A DNA stretch of 37,237 nt, taken from Lachnospiraceae bacterium (lineage in GTDB: Bacteria; Bacillota; Clostridia; Lachnospirales; Lachnospiraceae). Both the position numbers and the translations under genes were made by a program. Shown in pieces: positions 5,367 to 14,425 of this stretch. Location: assembly GCA_022510665.1 (NCBI GenBank), contig JAFLSZ010000005.1, forward strand, positions 19,325 to 56,561. The letters run 5' to 3'. Position 1 is the stretch's first letter. Each line of letters opens with the position of its first letter. Under the pieces are notes generated by a model. The model saw nothing but the letters and a program-made list of their open reading frames with translations, was not told the origin of the DNA and searched no databases.

Positions 5367-6893
5367 TTATTCTAAATCAAGTACAATCGTTGTAATGCTC
5401 TCCGCCGGAAGTTTTACGGTATTTCCTGCCTGCAGCGCCCCGATATTCTCATACAGAACATTGTTGGAAGAATCATCTATTCCGAGTACCGACTGGTATA
5501 TCTCACTTCCCGTAATATAATACCCCTCTGCCGGAACCTGTAACGTCCGTTCTTTCTCTCCAAGGTTAATCACAACCAGCACTACTTTTTTCCCGTCTTC
5601 ACTTACATACGCGGAAGTCTTAAAATCCATTTTGTCTTCCACTTCAGCACCCACGCGGATATATCCCGGACGGATAAATTCGGAGAAATGACGCAGCGCG
5701 TAATAATCCGCGCAGAGAAGCCATCCGTCTTTGTTTACTTTCTTTCCGCTATCGATTCCGATTAACTCTCCGCTCTCAAAATCCCCGGCAGCATTCGGCC
5801 AGACCGCGCTCCAATATATATACGCGTTCATATCCGCCCATTCCATGGCATTGTTAATCAGCGCCGCCGTCTGAAGGCCGCGTCCGCGGAAAAACTCGGT
5901 CTGCCAGCGCGCGTATCCGTATTCGCCGAAATACTTCTCCATATCCATGAAATTCCAACGGAAAGAGTCATACCTTACCGTATTATTATCTTCATTCGAA
6001 TCACCGCCGACATACAAATGATAACCGATTCCGTAAATGCTTTCCGGTTTCGTATCAATAATTTCTCTTACATAACCGTACAGCTTTAACGGTTCACAGG
6101 TCATCGTTTCCGGCGCAATCATCTTAGGCGCTTCATCTCCAAACGCCTCCCGGAGCGCGTCATACACCGCCAGAAACGCTTTCGCGTAGGAAGCGTGTGT
6201 ACTGGTTTCCGTCTGTGCAAACTCACATCCGTCATAACTTGCCACAAAATCACACTCATTCTGTATGGAAACATAGTCAATCTTAATACCCCAGTCACGG
6301 TAGAACTGAACCGATTCTACCCACCACTGCGCATATTCCTCATACATATAGGTACCGTCTTCATGTTTTGCGAGCGAACCCCCTCCGTTGATGCTGTGAT
6401 TGGATTTCAGTCTCGCAGGCGGCGACCAGCAGGAAAGCAGTATCGTCGGCTCTTCACCGTACTTTGCCGCGCGTTCTACCGCTGCTTCATAAATACGAAC
6501 CATCGGACCGACGTTGCCTGCGACGCCTTCCACACTGTAAGCATATTCGTTTTTAAAACGAATGATTGACATCTTCGCGTCCGAAAACGCCGCATCCAAC
6601 AGCCCCGCAGTATTACCGGTCGTAAATACCTGATCCGAATACCATGTAAACGCACCTCCGAAGCCGTCTATTTTCTGATGTTTTTCATTCAAATCAAAAG
6701 TATATCGTAAATACTCTCCGTTCAAAGCGGTATCCCCCTCATCCGGCCCTGCCGTAATCTCCGGTGTCGGCGTCAGCGCACCGTCGGTAATTTCCGGTTC
6801 TTTTGTCGGTTCGTCCGTTCCTCCCGGCTGCTTTCCGCAGGCTGCGGTCAGCAACAGAAGCGAAATAAAAAACAAACTCCGTACCTTTTTCAT
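5367..6893 (-). CDS. GH30-family glycoside hydrolase, lipoprotein
   Basis: This is a predicted surface-anchored glycan hydrolase of 508 residues. The start at 6893 follows an AAGGAGG site and gives a signal peptide with lipobox TAAC (Cys19), then a Pro/Thr/Glu linker to about residue 58. The catalytic domain begins with the GH30 hallmark KIDGFGGAFTW. The likely acid/base is Glu213 in SIQNECDF and the likely nucleophile is Glu333 in WQTEFF. The SCWSPPARLKSN and YHLYVGG segments also fit. The pattern resembles the xylan-active branch of GH30, but substrate cannot be fixed by eye. A C-terminal beta-rich side domain completes the protein. It sits between hslO and purB with short gaps, an unusual place for a carbohydrate enzyme. 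Confidence 0.85.
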   Translation of the reverse strand: MKKVRSLFFISLLLLTAACGKQPGGTDEPTKEPEITDGALTPTPEITAGPDEGDTALNGEYLRYTFDLNEKHQKIDGFGGAFTWYSDQVFTTGNTAGLLDAAFSDAKMSIIRFKNEYAYSVEGVAGNVGPMVRIYEAAVERAAKYGEEPTILLSCWSPPARLKSNHSINGGGSLAKHEDGTYMYEEYAQWWVESVQFYRDWGIKIDYVSIQNECDFVASYDGCEFAQTETSTHASYAKAFLAVYDALREAFGDEAPKMIAPETMTCEPLKLYGYVREIIDTKPESIYGIGYHLYVGGDSNEDNNTVRYDSFRWNFMDMEKYFGEYGYARWQTEFFRGRGLQTAALINNAMEWADMNAYIYWSAVWPNAAGDFESGELIGIDSGKKVNKDGWLLCADYYALRHFSEFIRPGYIRVGAEVEDKMDFKTSAYVSEDGKKVVLVVINLGEKERTLQVPAEGYYITGSEIYQSVLGIDDSSNNVLYENIGALQAGNTVKLPAESITTIVLDLE

Positions 6894-6925
6894 TTTTCTT
6901 GTCCTCCTTCTTTGTCTTTTTACTT

Positions 6926-7813
6926 TCAACGGGCCTCTGCCCTTAACCTGCGCAGTTCGTCCACAGAAAAAGTATAACTGCCGTCACAGAACTGGCAGTT
7001 TGTCGTAATCGGCTCGCCGTCCGCAATCATCGCATCTAACTCTGCCCTGCCGATGCTGATTAACGCCTTTTCCACACGTTCTCTGGAACAGTTGCAATAG
7101 TAAGAAGCCGGTATCTTATCCAGCAGCTTTAAATCAAATCCCGTGAAAATATATTCTAAAATCTCCTCCGGCGTCATGCCCTCTTCTAACAAACCGGACA
7201 CGGCCGTCACCTCGGTTAACTTCTGCTCCAGATGGGAAATGACTTCCTCGGTCGCATTCGGCATCAACTGAATCATAAAACCGCCCGCCTGCGCCACGGT
7301 ATTGTCACGGTTCATCAGTACGCCGAGGGCAACCGATGACGGCACCTGCTCCGACGCCGCGAAATAATAAGTAAAGTCTTCCGCAATCTCGCCGGAAATC
7401 AGCTCCGTTTCACCGATATACGGTTCTTTCAGGCCCAAATCCTTAATCACCCTGAGAACTCCTTTTCCGACCGCACCGCCGACATCAAGCTTTCCTTCTT
7501 TGCTCGGCGGAAGCATTACCCCCGGATTCTGCACATACCCTTTCACCCGCGCCATAGAATCCGCGGTAACGGTCGCGGTTCCAAGCGGACCGTCCCCCAT
7601 AACCTGAACGGTCAGTAAATCCTTTCCGCCTTTCATCATACTTCCCATCATTGCCGCGCCGGTCAGCAAACGCCCTAACGCCGCCGTCGCTACCGGACTG
7701 GTGTTATGAATTGTTCTGGCCCTTTCTGTCAGATTCCTCGTTGTTGCGGCAAACACGCGAATCTGCCCGTCCGCGGCACTGCCGCGGACAATATAATCCT
7801 GCTTATTTTCCAT
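6926..7813 (-). CDS. hslO: Redox-regulated chaperone Hsp33
   Basis: Hsp33 is a cytosolic holdase. It is inactive when its four C-terminal cysteines bind zinc, and is activated by oxidative unfolding. The 295-residue protein has the N-terminal Hsp33 fold and the C-terminal zinc motif CNC (in SYYCNCSRERV) plus CQFC (in TTNCQFCDGSY). The start at 7813 follows AGGA and begins MENKQDYIVRG; the longer frame to 7849 would overlap cdd. It lies 7 bp downstream of cdd on the same strand, so it is co-transcribed with the salvage genes. Confidence 0.92.
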   Translation of the reverse strand: MENKQDYIVRGSAADGQIRVFAATTRNLTERARTIHNTSPVATAALGRLLTGAAMMGSMMKGGKDLLTVQVMGDGPLGTATVTADSMARVKGYVQNPGVMLPPSKEGKLDVGGAVGKGVLRVIKDLGLKEPYIGETELISGEIAEDFTYYFAASEQVPSSVALGVLMNRDNTVAQAGGFMIQLMPNATEEVISHLEQKLTEVTAVSGLLEEGMTPEEILEYIFTGFDLKLLDKIPASYYCNCSRERVEKALISIGRAELDAMIADGEPITTNCQFCDGSYTFSVDELRRLRAEAR

Positions 7814-9065: not shown

Positions 9066-9776
9066 TTATGCCAGTTCCAATGCCACCTGCATCATATCGC
9101 GGAAACTTATCTGTCTTTCTTCGGCGGAAAGCGCCTCGCCGGTATACAGATGGTCCGAAATTGTCAGCATACAAAGCGCCTGCTTTCCGGCATACGCCGC
9201 ATTCAGATAAAGCGCCGCGGCTTCCATTTCCACACAGAGAATCCCCATCTCTTTCCAACGGTCGTTAAAGGTTTTGTCCGCATTATAAAACACATCCGAA
9301 GAAAGGATATTGCCTACCGCAACCGGAATATTTTTTGCTTCGGCGGCTTCCACCGCACGGCGCAGCAGAGCATAATCGGCCAACGGCGCAATCGTCCCCG
9401 GAAGGTTATACTGTGCCGCGTAATTACTGTTTGTCGAAGCGCCCATGCCGATAACCAAATCGCGCACCTTTACCTGATCGGAAATTCCTCCCGCGGAACC
9501 GATACGGATAATCCGGTCAACCCCATAAAAATTATATAATTCATAAGAGTAAATACCAATGGACGGCATTCCCATACCGCTTCCCATTACCGATACCCTT
9601 TTGCCCCGATACGTCCCCGTAAAACCTAACATATTGCGTACCGTATTAAAGCATGTCACATCCTCCAAATATGTGTCGGCAATAAACTTCGCCCGCAAAG
9701 GATCCCCCGGTAATAATACTGTCTTTGCGATTTCTCCCTCTTTTGCTGCGTTATGCGCGGTTGGTACTGCTGCCAT
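9066..9776 (-). CDS. deoD: DeoD-type purine nucleoside phosphorylase
   Basis: The enzyme splits purine (deoxy)ribonucleosides with phosphate to give the free base and (deoxy)ribose-1-phosphate. At 236 residues it is full length for the hexameric PNP/UP family. It shows the phosphate site GDPLRAK, the RIGSAGGI motif and the nucleoside-binding segment CVEMEAAALY, with a catalytic Asp in ISDHL. An AAAGGAG site precedes the start. It is the first gene of the salvage run: a sigma-A promoter lies 46-74 bp upstream, and deoC follows after 15 bp. Confidence 0.95.
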   Translation of the reverse strand: MAAVPTAHNAAKEGEIAKTVLLPGDPLRAKFIADTYLEDVTCFNTVRNMLGFTGTYRGKRVSVMGSGMGMPSIGIYSYELYNFYGVDRIIRIGSAGGISDQVKVRDLVIGMGASTNSNYAAQYNLPGTIAPLADYALLRRAVEAAEAKNIPVAVGNILSSDVFYNADKTFNDRWKEMGILCVEMEAAALYLNAAYAGKQALCMLTISDHLYTGEALSAEERQISFRDMMQVALELA

Positions 9777-9821: not shown

Positions 9822-9850
9822 AGTATATACTGATTCCAAAAGAAAGTCAA
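9822..9850 (-). promoter_or_regulatory. Sigma-A promoter of the deoD run
   Basis: On the minus strand, TTGACT (9845-9850) and TATACT (9822-9827) are separated by 17 bp. This sits 46 bp upstream of the deoD start. It probably drives deoD, deoC, cdd and hslO and, by read-through, the GH30 gene and purB. Confidence 0.75.
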
Positions 9851-9890
9851 GGATTTCACAAATGACGGCATCGTGCGGCGGATTTGGGCA

Positions 9891-9943
9891 TAAAAACACC
9901 TCCTAAATAGATTTTGCTTATTTACCATGTCTATTTAGGAGGT
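9891..9943 (-). terminator. Terminator-like hairpin after the sugar ABC operon
   Basis: A perfect 14-bp inverted repeat (9898-9911 and 9930-9943) with an 18-nt loop lies 45 bp past the last permease gene. On the minus strand it is followed by GTTTTTATG, so it fits a terminator. The 3' arm of the stem is AGGAGGT, a perfect Shine-Dalgarno sequence, and an ATG follows 6 nt later. That ATG opens only 11 codons. Confidence 0.65.
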
Positions 9944-9988
9944 ATCCTATCATTTTATATAGAGTTCCGCAGTCGTCCTTTTTATCTC

Positions 9989-10831
9989 CTAACCCTTAAC
10001 GGCTCCTACCGTCAGACCTTCTACAATCTGATTACTGAATATACAGTACACGATAACATTCGGCGCAATCGCGATAAGGATTGCCGCAAACATCTGTACA
10101 TAGTTTGTTTTGTACGGCCCCGCAAAGTAAGATAACGTTACCGGAAGCGTTTTCTTCATCTTGTCGGAAATAAATACCAACGCAAGAAGCAGCTCGTTCC
10201 AGTTTCCTACAAAGGTCATCAAACCCGTGACAAAAAGTCCTGTCTTGCTGAGCGGAAGCGCAATGGTAAAGAAGCACCGGTAAATATTACATCCGTCAAT
10301 ACAGGCGGCCTCAAACAGCTCGCCCGGCATGGAGCGGAAAAATCCTACCATAATATAAATTGTAATCGGCAGCGAGAACGTGATGTACGGTATAATTATG
10401 GAAATCAACGAATCTGTCATTTTGATTTTTGAAAACTGTACATACAGCGGTATTAATACACAGTGTACCGGAATCATCATTCCAACCAAAAAATATGTCA
10501 TCATCGCACCGGAAAACTTCCAGCGCATACGTCCGATTGCAAATGCCGCCATGGAACCAAACAACAAGCTGACTACCAGAGTAGCACTGCAGACAATTAC
10601 GGAATTTCTTAACGCTACACCAAGATATGCTTTTTCCCATGCCTCTTTAAAATTTTCCCAATGCAGCTCTTTTGGAATACCGAACGGGTCCAGCGTCAAC
10701 TCCGAATTTGTTTTTAAAGAAACTATAATAATCCACAAAAGCGGAGCAAGATAAACAACTACCAATACTATCAGGAAAATAAGAATCAAAACCTGACTTA
10801 CCTTTAACTTCTTTCTGTTTCCTTTCGCCAT
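9989..10831 (-). CDS. Carbohydrate ABC transporter permease, MalG type
   Basis: This is an inner membrane permease subunit of a CUT1-type sugar importer, 280 residues with about six membrane segments; the first spans roughly residues 12-33. The EAA loop for ATPase contact is visible as FEAACIDGCNIYRCFFTIALP near residues 183-203. It follows the MalF-type gene by 12 bp. No ATPase gene is present in the operon, so a shared MsmX-like ATPase encoded elsewhere is inferred. The sugar substrate cannot be read from the sequence. Confidence 0.9.
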   Translation of the reverse strand: MAKGNRKKLKVSQVLILIFLIVLVVVYLAPLLWIIIVSLKTNSELTLDPFGIPKELHWENFKEAWEKAYLGVALRNSVIVCSATLVVSLLFGSMAAFAIGRMRWKFSGAMMTYFLVGMMIPVHCVLIPLYVQFSKIKMTDSLISIIIPYITFSLPITIYIMVGFFRSMPGELFEAACIDGCNIYRCFFTIALPLSKTGLFVTGLMTFVGNWNELLLALVFISDKMKKTLPVTLSYFAGPYKTNYVQMFAAILIAIAPNVIVYCIFSNQIVEGLTVGAVKG

Positions 10832-10843
10832 TTTCCGTCCTCC

Positions 10844-11731
10844 TTACATCTCGTATTCTTCCACTTTGATGAAACGATTTACTAAGAACGTGGTGATCAG
10901 ACACATGCCGAGAAGCACCATGCCGATTGCACTGGCATATCCCATCTTACTGTAACGGAATCCCTGCTGGTATAAGTGCGTTGCCAGCACCTGTGTCCGG
11001 TTGGACGGCCCGCCTGTTGTCATATTAAAAATCAGGTCAAAGAACTTTAAGGAACCGATACAAGTCAGGGAAAGCGAAGTGGCTACCATCGGCTTAATCA
11101 GCGGAAGTGTAATATGCCAAAACGCTTTCGTCTTTCCGCAGCCGTCAATATATGCCGCTTCATAAAGAGACGGAGAAATTCCCGTAATCTGCGCCATGTA
11201 AAGCATCATTGTCTGTCCTACATACTGCCATGTCGCAACAAATCCTATCATCCACATCGGAAGAATGATAAAGCCTTTTATTTCCATCAGCCAGTTCGGT
11301 CCCTGAATTCCGATTTTCGCGAGCAGGTTATTGATACCGATTCTTGGATTGAAAATAAATGACCATAAAAGACCGAGCGCCGCCGAGGAAAGCACGGCCG
11401 GAAGATAATACACATTCTTAAAGAAGTTTCTTCCTTTTTTTATATTTGTCAAAAGAATTGCAATAAACAATCCGATTATCTGCTGAGTAACTGCGGAAAA
11501 CAGCATAAAGAAAATCGAATTCTTCAGTGCTATTTTCATAACGTCATCCTGCTTAAACAACTTAATATAATTTCCCAAACCAATAAAGTTTATCGTCTTC
11601 ATGCCGTCATAATCGCATAAAGAATAATAAATAACTAAACCTATCGGAAGCAAAAGAATCGCAGTAAATAAAATAAATGCAGGTGCAATAAAAATTATAA
11701 TTGCTTTTTTATCAGAAAAAATTTTGTTCAT
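10844..11731 (-). CDS. Carbohydrate ABC transporter permease, MalF type
   Basis: This is the partner permease, 295 residues from a start at 11731 (MNKIFSDKKA). That start has GGGGG about eight bases upstream; the longer frame to 11791 runs into the intercistronic hairpin. About six hydrophobic segments are present. The EAA loop YEAAYIDGCGKTKAFWHITLP sits in the C-terminal half. It resembles UgpA/LacF permeases. It lies between the binding protein gene and the MalG-type gene, separated from the former by 105 bp that hold a stem-loop. Confidence 0.9.
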   Translation of the reverse strand: MNKIFSDKKAIIIFIAPAFILFTAILLLPIGLVIYYSLCDYDGMKTINFIGLGNYIKLFKQDDVMKIALKNSIFFMLFSAVTQQIIGLFIAILLTNIKKGRNFFKNVYYLPAVLSSAALGLLWSFIFNPRIGINNLLAKIGIQGPNWLMEIKGFIILPMWMIGFVATWQYVGQTMMLYMAQITGISPSLYEAAYIDGCGKTKAFWHITLPLIKPMVATSLSLTCIGSLKFFDLIFNMTTGGPSNRTQVLATHLYQQGFRYSKMGYASAIGMVLLGMCLITTFLVNRFIKVEEYEM

Positions 11732-11770
11732 ATTAATTCCCCCTGTAACACTTTCCGAAACGCTTCCTTC

Positions 11771-11811
11771 AAAAATATACGGGACCGGCATCCACCAATC
11801 CCGTATATTTT
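11771..11811 (-). terminator. Intercistronic stem-loop in the ABC operon
   Basis: A perfect 13-bp inverted repeat (11772-11784 and 11799-11811, 14-nt loop) lies between the binding protein and permease genes. On the minus strand the stem is followed by five Ts. It looks like a partial terminator or mRNA-stabilising hairpin, as is common where a binding protein must be made in excess over permeases. Confidence 0.7.
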
Positions 11812-11836
11812 AAGTACACCTTACATTAAGAACTAC

Positions 11837-13078
11837 TTATTTCCAAATATTCTGTGTAAAGAAATCCTGAACCTTCTGAAGTCCTTGCTCTACGGTGCAG
11901 GCGCCAAGGAAAATATCTACCATAGCATCATCAAAGGTAGCACCGGCCTCCGTGCTAGGAAGAGACTCGTTATAGAATCCCAAAGTACCGGTAGCCTTAG
12001 AAAGAATATCCATTACATAAGTAAGCTGTGCCGGAGCCTTTGCCTTATCAAACGTAATGTTGGTTACCGGAATCTTTCCGCCTACTTCTGCAGTATACTT
12101 CTGAGCGGTCTCGTCGGTGAAATACTTCATAAGAGCGATACAAGCTTCTTCATGCTTCGTGGTAGCGCTCATGCAGAGGTTATCGGTCTTAACGATCATA
12201 CGGTTCGGGTCAGCGCCGCCTTCAATTGCCGGGAAGGAGAATACGCCGCACTTTGCTTCAAAATCCGGGTTTGCACCATTGATCTGACCGATTGCCCAGG
12301 AACCCTGAACCAACATAGCAGCCTCTCCGTTATAGAAAGCAGCGGTAGCCTGGTCATTGGAATCACCTGCAGCGGTGGACTGGAAATACTTAGAAAGCTC
12401 AACCAGCTTGTTTGCCGCGGTTACAAAGCTCTCACTCGTCCAGGCAATCTTGCCTGCATTTACGTCAGTCAGGTTATTCGGGCCGCCTGCTCTGTCACAA
12501 AGGTAGCCGGCAATCATGGATAAGCACCATGCGGTACCTGCGGAACAGGAAATCGGTGTATAGCCTGCATTCTGCAGCTTCTGGCAGGCATCAATGAGCT
12601 CCGTGAAAGTGGTCGGAACTGCTACGCCTGCATTAGCAAACATCTCCGTATTATAGAATACAAGAGCTGCCGCAAAGTTGGTCGGAACCGCATAAATCTT
12701 TCCGTCATAGGTGAGTCTTTCGAAAATACCGGCAGAGAAAGAATTATACCAATCCTTATCATTATTAAGGATAGAGGTAATATCTTTCGCAACACCGTTA
12801 TTAACGACATCCGTCAATCTCGGACCCGGGTCCATGATGAATACGTCAGGGGTCGTATTGGAACCAACCATAGCGTTAAACTTTGTGATGTACTCTTCAA
12901 GGTTTGTCGTAATCGGAGTTACCTTGTACTGTCCTTCGTAGTCCTTGTTGAAGCGTTCAATAACTTCTCTGTAACCGATGGTAATCAGGTCTTCGCTTGC
13001 ATCAAGGTCGTCCCAGAACATCCAGGTGATTTCCTCAACGTCTCCGTCCTTCTTGCTCAGTGAAACGAGGTCATCTTT
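11837..13078 (-). CDS. Sugar ABC transporter substrate-binding protein, 5'-truncated
   Basis: The mature part of an extracellular sugar-binding protein is present: EEITWMFWDD near the N-terminus, then the family 1 core and an intact C-terminus ending FTQNIWK. The signal peptide and lipobox are missing. Reading upstream, the frame passes through KDDLVSLSKKDG and then enters sequence that is exactly antisense to the start of the AraC gene at 13079. The open frame formally continues to an ATG at 13135, but those residues (MCIRFKSNGFL...) are antisense AraC and not a leader. As it stands the product could not be exported. The cause is either a deletion of the intergenic region plus roughly the first 30-60 codons, or a false assembly join. 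Confidence 0.85.
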   Translation of the reverse strand, partial: KDDLVSLSKKDGDVEEITWMFWDDLDASEDLITIGYREVIERFNKDYEGQYKVTPITTNLEEYITKFNAMVGSNTTPDVFIMDPGPRLTDVVNNGVAKDITSILNNDKDWYNSFSAGIFERLTYDGKIYAVPTNFAAALVFYNTEMFANAGVAVPTTFTELIDACQKLQNAGYTPISCSAGTAWCLSMIAGYLCDRAGGPNNLTDVNAGKIAWTSESFVTAANKLVELSKYFQSTAAGDSNDQATAAFYNGEAAMLVQGSWAIGQINGANPDFEAKCGVFSFPAIEGGADPNRMIVKTDNLCMSATTKHEEACIALMKYFTDETAQKYTAEVGGKIPVTNITFDKAKAPAQLTYVMDILSKATGTLGFYNESLPSTEAGATFDDAMVDIFLGACTVEQGLQKVQDFFTQNIWK

Positions 13079-13933
13079 ATGATTGAAAATTTGAACGGCA
13101 CACAGGAAACCGTTACTTTTAAACCTAATACACATCTTACATTATACGACAACTGCAAAACCGAGGACTATGTACTTCATTGGCATATACCGCTTGAAAT
13201 CATTATGCCGTTGACGAACGCTTACACGGTATATTGTAACGATAAAACCTTCGTGCTGCAGGAAGGGCATATTCTTATTATTAATTCGGGAACGCTCCAC
13301 CATATGCCCGCGCAGCCCGGACGCCGTATTATTTTTCAGGCGGATTTTTCGCTCTTGCGCAACCTGCGCGAACTAAACGCTTCGCTCGCGCTGATTTCCT
13401 ATGCCAAAGTTTTTACGCCGGAGAACTCTCCTGCCATTCACACGGAACTCCAGCAGATTCTCTTGGAAATCCGCGAAGAATACGGCAGCGACAGCCTCTT
13501 TTCCGAAGCCGCCGTTTATGCCAAACTTATCAATATGTTCGTACTGATTGGCAGAAACCACACGCTGAACAGTGAGATTTTCGACGTACAAAGCAGAACA
13601 CAAAAAGAATATGTGGAAAAATTTATGTATATCTGTCAATACATTGATTCCCACTGCACCGAGGAACTGTCAATCGAAGAAGCTGCCGCGCTCATCGGTT
13701 TCAGCAAATATCACTTTTCACGCCTGTTTAAACAGTTTACGAATACTTCTTTTTATAAATACCTGAGTCAAAAACGGATTTCCTATGCAGAAAATCTGCT
13801 GACCACTTCCAACATTACGGTTACAGATGTTGCGGCAAGTTCCGGTTTCCCAAGTGTTTCGGCCTTTATCCGCATGTTTAAAATTATCAAAGGCTGTACG
13901 CCGACCGAATTCCGCAGTATGTATGAATCCTGA
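13079..13933 (+). CDS. AraC-family transcriptional regulator
   Basis: The 284-residue regulator has an N-terminal cupin-like sensing domain (HWHIPLEIIMP, then SGTLHHMPAQ, residues about 30-85). A C-terminal double helix-turn-helix AraC domain spans about 185-284 (LSIEEAAALIGFSKYHFSRLFK and a second helix set ending GCTPTEFR). It is divergent from the sugar ABC operon and probably regulates it in response to the sugar. The N-terminus looks complete, but the DNA directly upstream is binding-protein coding sequence, so its natural promoter and operator seem to be missing. A GAGG eight bases before the ATG could act as a ribosome binding site by chance. Confidence 0.9.
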   Translation: MIENLNGTQETVTFKPNTHLTLYDNCKTEDYVLHWHIPLEIIMPLTNAYTVYCNDKTFVLQEGHILIINSGTLHHMPAQPGRRIIFQADFSLLRNLRELNASLALISYAKVFTPENSPAIHTELQQILLEIREEYGSDSLFSEAAVYAKLINMFVLIGRNHTLNSEIFDVQSRTQKEYVEKFMYICQYIDSHCTEELSIEEAAALIGFSKYHFSRLFKQFTNTSFYKYLSQKRISYAENLLTTSNITVTDVAASSGFPSVSAFIRMFKIIKGCTPTEFRSMYES

Positions 13934-13939
13934 CTTTAC

Positions 13940-13968
13940 TTGCCTTTTTTCATAAATTATGCTATATT
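13940..13968 (+). promoter_or_regulatory. Sigma-A promoter of the PH-domain gene
   Basis: TTGCCT (13940-13945) and TATATT (13963-13968) are 17 bp apart, with an extended -10 TG one base upstream of the -10. It lies 40 bp before the start at 14009. Confidence 0.7.
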
Positions 13969-14008
13969 AAACTCAATAAACTACCGAAACTTCCAAGGAG
14001 GAATTTAC

Positions 14009-14425
14009 ATGGCCGAAAAAACTTTACCGCTCGCGAACCAAAACGAACTTATCTGGAAGGACAGAAAACGAACCAAACTGTTTGCCCTGCCTTGGACCTT
14101 TACCGTTTATCGGCTGACAAAAGACCGTCTGTTAATTAAACACGGCTTTTTTACAACGCAGGAAGACGAAGTACGCCTCTACCGCATTCTGGATATTTCT
14201 TTAAGAAGAACCCTTATTCAGAAGCTGTTCGGCACCGGCAACATCGTCTGTCATTCCAGCGATAAAACTATGGGAGATTTTGAGATTATCAACGTGAAGC
14301 GCTCCAATGACGTAAAAAATATTCTTTCCGACCTCATTGAAAAGGAACGCATGGAAAAGCGCGTATCTAACCGCGAATTTATGAGTGACGGAGAATGCGA
14401 CTCCGATGACGTCGACACCGAGTAA
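14009..14425 (+). CDS. Small PH-domain (YdbS/YdbT-like) protein
   Basis: The 138-residue protein carries one bacterial PH-like domain: the segments FTVYRLTKDRLLIKHGFF and EVRLYRILDISLRRTL match the bPH2 pattern of YdbS/YdbT proteins. Those proteins have membrane segments, but this one has none, so it is a soluble single-domain version. The acidic C-terminus (GECDSDDVDTE) is low complexity. The start at 14009 follows AAGGAGG; a longer frame to 13940 would overlap the promoter. It is probably monocistronic. The function is unknown. Confidence 0.8.
   Translation: MAEKTLPLANQNELIWKDRKRTKLFALPWTFTVYRLTKDRLLIKHGFFTTQEDEVRLYRILDISLRRTLIQKLFGTGNIVCHSSDKTMGDFEIINVKRSNDVKNILSDLIEKERMEKRVSNREFMSDGECDSDDVDTE

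Follow-up and report, generated by a model that had tools for sequence, protein, structure and literature searches.

The window, i.e. the whole stretch of 37,237 nucleotides of Lachnospiraceae DNA analysed here, contains a block of about 4.1 kb (9850-13939, the ends being approximate) that comprises a terminator and the genes malG, malF, a sugar-binding protein (SBP) and araC, located between deoD (9066-9776) and a bPH_2 gene (14009-14425). Two permeases with BPD_transp_1 domains are encoded on the minus strand, MalG-type at 9989-10831 and MalF-type at 10844-11734. On the same strand lies a CUT1-type SBP (11837-13048; Pfam SBP_bac_1, 136.7 bits) of which only the mature part is present, lacking signal peptide and linker. 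A full-length AraC-family regulator (13079-13933, plus strand; HTH_18, 75.7 bits; AraC_binding, 25.3 bits) adjoins the SBP gene in the opposite direction, as in a divergent pair. The block thus encodes a family 1 SBP and two MalF/MalG-type proteins in a row in one operon, as in a CUT1 importer. CUT1 importers of Gram-positive bacteria require an exported SBP; the export signal is absent in the window and present in relatives, and the shared control region with operator repeats that belongs to the divergent pair is also missing. No further copies of the SBP were found in the genome.

An intrinsic terminator on the minus strand follows malG (9888-9946), with a 17-bp stem and then a GUUUUUAU tail; the region 9990-9860 folds at -36.3 kcal/mol with z = -3.64. 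The inverted repeat is long (ACCTCCTAAATAGA ... TCTATTTAGGAGGT) and a T run follows it; by folding this is a strong terminator.

The SBP frame on the minus strand and the AraC gene on the plus strand adjoin with no intergenic DNA between them. The SBP frame opens with KDDLVSLSKKDGDVEEITW, abutting the antisense of the AraC ATG at 13079. It remains open up to an ATG at 13135, but solely by way of antisense AraC codons (MCIRFKSNGFLCAVQIFNH), and this extension contains neither a signal peptide nor a lipobox. From about residue 11 onward the SBP shares 61-74% identity with full-length relatives, the homology beginning at residues 11-16 (13048 and below). On the other side, a Shine-Dalgarno-like GAGG at 13067-13070 (plus strand), recognized from its position and from comparison with the AraC leaders of relatives, lies at the correct spacing 8 nt before the AraC ATG. 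The leaders in relatives are mostly AT-rich with a Shine-Dalgarno sequence at the end, and their ribosome-binding sites are similar (e.g. GCGAGGTTATAATC-ATG in L033 and ATCGAGGTCACCTG-ATG in L070). The GAGG is therefore probably the ribosome-binding site of AraC, retained with a few bases of its leader, and the peptide KDDLVSL is probably the antisense of that leader and not part of the SBP. Given the position of the GAGG and the end of the SBP homology near 13048, the junction most likely lies within about 13043-13067. A preliminary description had the SBP frame running into the antisense of the AraC start with no intergenic region, and the sequence confirms this; its placement of the join at the start codon itself is displaced by the leader bases that are probably retained.

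A scan of a collection of species representatives yielded 80 loci with SBPs 61-74% identical to that of the window. AraC lies divergently upstream in 66 of these, within the distance analysed or, in L065, farther off, and these regulators align with the AraC of the window from residue 1 to 281-284 with 42-59% identity. Between the AraC ATG and the counterpart of residue 1 of the window SBP, 65 loci have 355-605 bp and L065 has 1732 bp, compared with 0 in the window, a difference far beyond chance. In 15 further loci, partly overlapping in species, the distance is 357-467 bp. A lipoprotein or Sec signal stands ahead of the conserved EITWMFWDDL start in the relatives. None of the 66 loci or the 15 further ones shares the junction of the window, the nearest SBP being only about 74% identical. 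In the comparison with relatives that had been proposed, all 66 loci have a signal peptide and an interval of at least 355 bp. The earlier reading of the locus, as a real deletion or an assembly error, is upheld to the extent that a signal peptide and several hundred bp of regulatory DNA are missing and that no relative has the same junction.

The type of signal is not uniform in this SBP family. A lipobox with a long linker is found in some members, and in others a plain Sec-type signal that ends immediately ahead of the conserved domain (L053, L057, L060-L064 and others). This suggests that the proteins are anchored differently.

The intervals of the relatives contain a conserved repeat. At least one AGCAATWWTT site is present in 71 of 74 divergent AraC-SBP intervals, which come from Lachnospiraceae and related genomes (loci L033-L121, e.g. 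L098, L101 and L111, some genomes being represented twice). The 74 intervals contain 145 sites compared with 2.7 expected from shuffles, and the coding DNA that flanks them (150 kb) has no site at all. Sites on the same strand are most often 21 bp apart, i.e. two helical turns, a distance that suits the paired half-sites to which regulators of the AraC type bind. The repeat is thus a putative conserved operator of this AraC group. As a candidate operator for a widespread group of regulators it has more value than the junction.

No AGCAATWWTT site is found at 11700-14100 of the window, even when one mismatch is allowed. A search for the tandem operator elsewhere in the genome gave matches only with three mismatches, fewer than the reversed control. 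A simple promoter scan of 11700-14100 found two sites compared with 3.5 expected by shuffling; neither strand has one near the junction, and none would serve the SBP or AraC genes. The absence of a signal peptide and of a promoter for either gene, as first described, is therefore borne out by the N-terminal frame and by the scan. It had also been stated that a divergent pair needs an operator region, and nearly all relatives do have operator-like repeats in their longer gap. The suggestion that the regulator has been rewired finds no support, since no promoter for AraC was found and no exact or one-mismatch operator remains.

In eight sister species of the genus the orthologous site can be compared, and all of them lack the block. 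Their deoD and bPH_2 genes are directly adjacent, 205-289 bp apart; the gap contains conserved promoter sequences, and the same sequences flank the block in the window. The SBP-AraC gene pair was found in no sister genome compared. Since the sisters agree, insertion of the block in the lineage of the window is favoured over loss in the sisters. In either case the block is accessory and non-essential, and it was possibly acquired. At the far end of the block a promoter-like site for bPH_2 (13940-13968, plus strand), identified by the promoter scan and by its match to the promoter region of the sisters, begins 6 bp after the AraC stop codon. Given this proximity, co-transcription of AraC and bPH_2 is possible.

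The remaining proteins are well preserved. At near-invariant columns the SBP deviates at 8 of 156 positions (rank 4 of 81, the median being 2), the changes being mostly mild, and AraC deviates at 3 of 60. With no stop codons and with conservation close to that of the relatives, the coding sequences show no clear decay. The codon usage of the block is like that of the neighbouring genes, with nothing foreign about it. In the absence of clear protein decay, and with codon usage as in the neighbours, the loss is either recent or an assembly error.

We consider it rather probable that the interval was lost by a recent local deletion that is real in the organism. The SBP and AraC genes are natural neighbours, so the join reflects loss within a locus rather than the fusion of unrelated ones. 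The window contains no gap letters, and a contig without them normally requires, with short-read assemblers, reads that cross the join. These three points together favour a deletion truly present in the sampled population, and the lack of stop codons and the near-normal conservation fit a recent event. It is a little surprising that both AraC coding ends are cleanly preserved, which is odd for a neutral deletion.

Intact coding sequences are expected equally from an assembly artefact, in which an ordinary AT-rich interval with signal peptide and operators was dropped or collapsed through a repeat, gap closing or a mixture of strains. We regard this as a substantial possibility, though not the preferred one. 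The draft genome is fragmented (136 contigs, 86% completeness), and the DNA missing here would be AT-rich and would carry short repeats at 21-bp intervals. Against an artefact, besides the lack of gap letters, other AT-rich intergenic stretches beside the block (GC 28-29%) are present, and there is no direct repeat of 10 bp or longer around the join; the latter is a weak point, as a collapsed repeat would leave one copy. There is no second copy of the junction flanks in the genome. We looked for the missing piece elsewhere in the genome, and the junction DNA and the signal-peptide region of a relative matched only the window locus and weak signal-peptide-like sequences; a lost stretch of some 400 bp could hardly be expected to form a contig of its own, so its absence says little. 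The single match to TAGCAATAATT in the genome has no SBP or AraC gene beside it. Codon usage gives no support for a piece of foreign contig, though it would not distinguish genomes of the same family. A viral collection gave no match, and a search of the literature on assembly deletions found nothing.

It is very unlikely that the junction is an evolved functional arrangement, in which a short SBP with a cytosolic role is made from a cryptic minus-strand start within araC, or AraC is controlled differently. Both frames are open and conserved, and a TATAAT hexamer on the minus strand (13146-13141) lies a few nucleotides upstream of the ATG at 13135. However, the hexamer is the antisense of AraC codons and has no -35 element, and the scan finds no promoter there. 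The arrangement occurs in no relative and the new N terminus has no signal, at odds with the general need of such importers in Gram-positive bacteria for export. Less probable still, to the point of being speculative, is that the deletion was selected because a cytosolic sugar-binding protein, whose gene overlaps its regulator in antisense, creates a new sugar-sensing or self-limiting circuit.

The block is an accessory AraC-regulated oligosaccharide importer of ordinary Lachnospiraceae type, probably for xylo-oligosaccharides. In the preferred reading, a real deletion of about 350-600 bp would have begun in the SBP linker and ended shortly before the ribosome-binding site of AraC, taking with it the start codon, signal peptide and linker of the SBP, the promoters of the two divergent genes and the operator repeats for AraC. 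The SBP, both permeases and AraC would then be transcriptionally silent or nearly so, AraC being expressed at most by chance, and any SBP that was made would stay in the cytosol, leaving the importer non-working. Lacking signal peptide, promoters and operator, the importer most likely does nothing, so that silencing of transport, as originally suggested, is the likeliest consequence. Predictions of sugar use from the gene content of this genome should not treat it as functional. As an observation the finding is real; its biology is ordinary. The locus provides a simple test case, by read mapping, for deletions in draft genomes.

The probable ligand is indicated by known systems. Several relatives have genes for GH3 enzymes, most similar to the xylosidase Xyl3A, after the importer, and in one case a GH43 beta-xylosidase precedes it (few loci were inspected, and the NCBIfam scores are below the curated cut-offs). 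The best PDB match of the window SBP is the oligosaccharide-binding SBP 4g68 (residues 7-404), which is distant at 137.7 bits and which we take to be a xylo-oligosaccharide binder. Together the neighbours and this match make xylo-oligosaccharides the likely ligand. The window has a GH30 xylanase-like gene at 5367-6929, and no GH3 or GH43 enzymes beside the importer. Lachnospiraceae loci with AraC, SBP and two permease genes and a Xyl3A-like GH3 or GH43 beta-xylosidase, such as that of Kineothrix alysoides (L039), have the same gene order and a divergent AraC. The SBPs of K. alysoides and Clostridium sp. KNHs205 (L033) are 71-73% identical to that of the window and their AraC proteins 54-59%. 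Loci of this type have 500-600 bp with a signal peptide and operator repeats, whereas the window has none of these and no adjacent GH3 or GH43 gene. By gene order the window also resembles the mixed-linkage beta-glucan locus of Blautia producta, in which an AraC gene is followed by SBP and transporter genes and deletion of the SBP slows growth on the glucan (PMC10318527); its glycosidases are different ones, GH16 and GH94.
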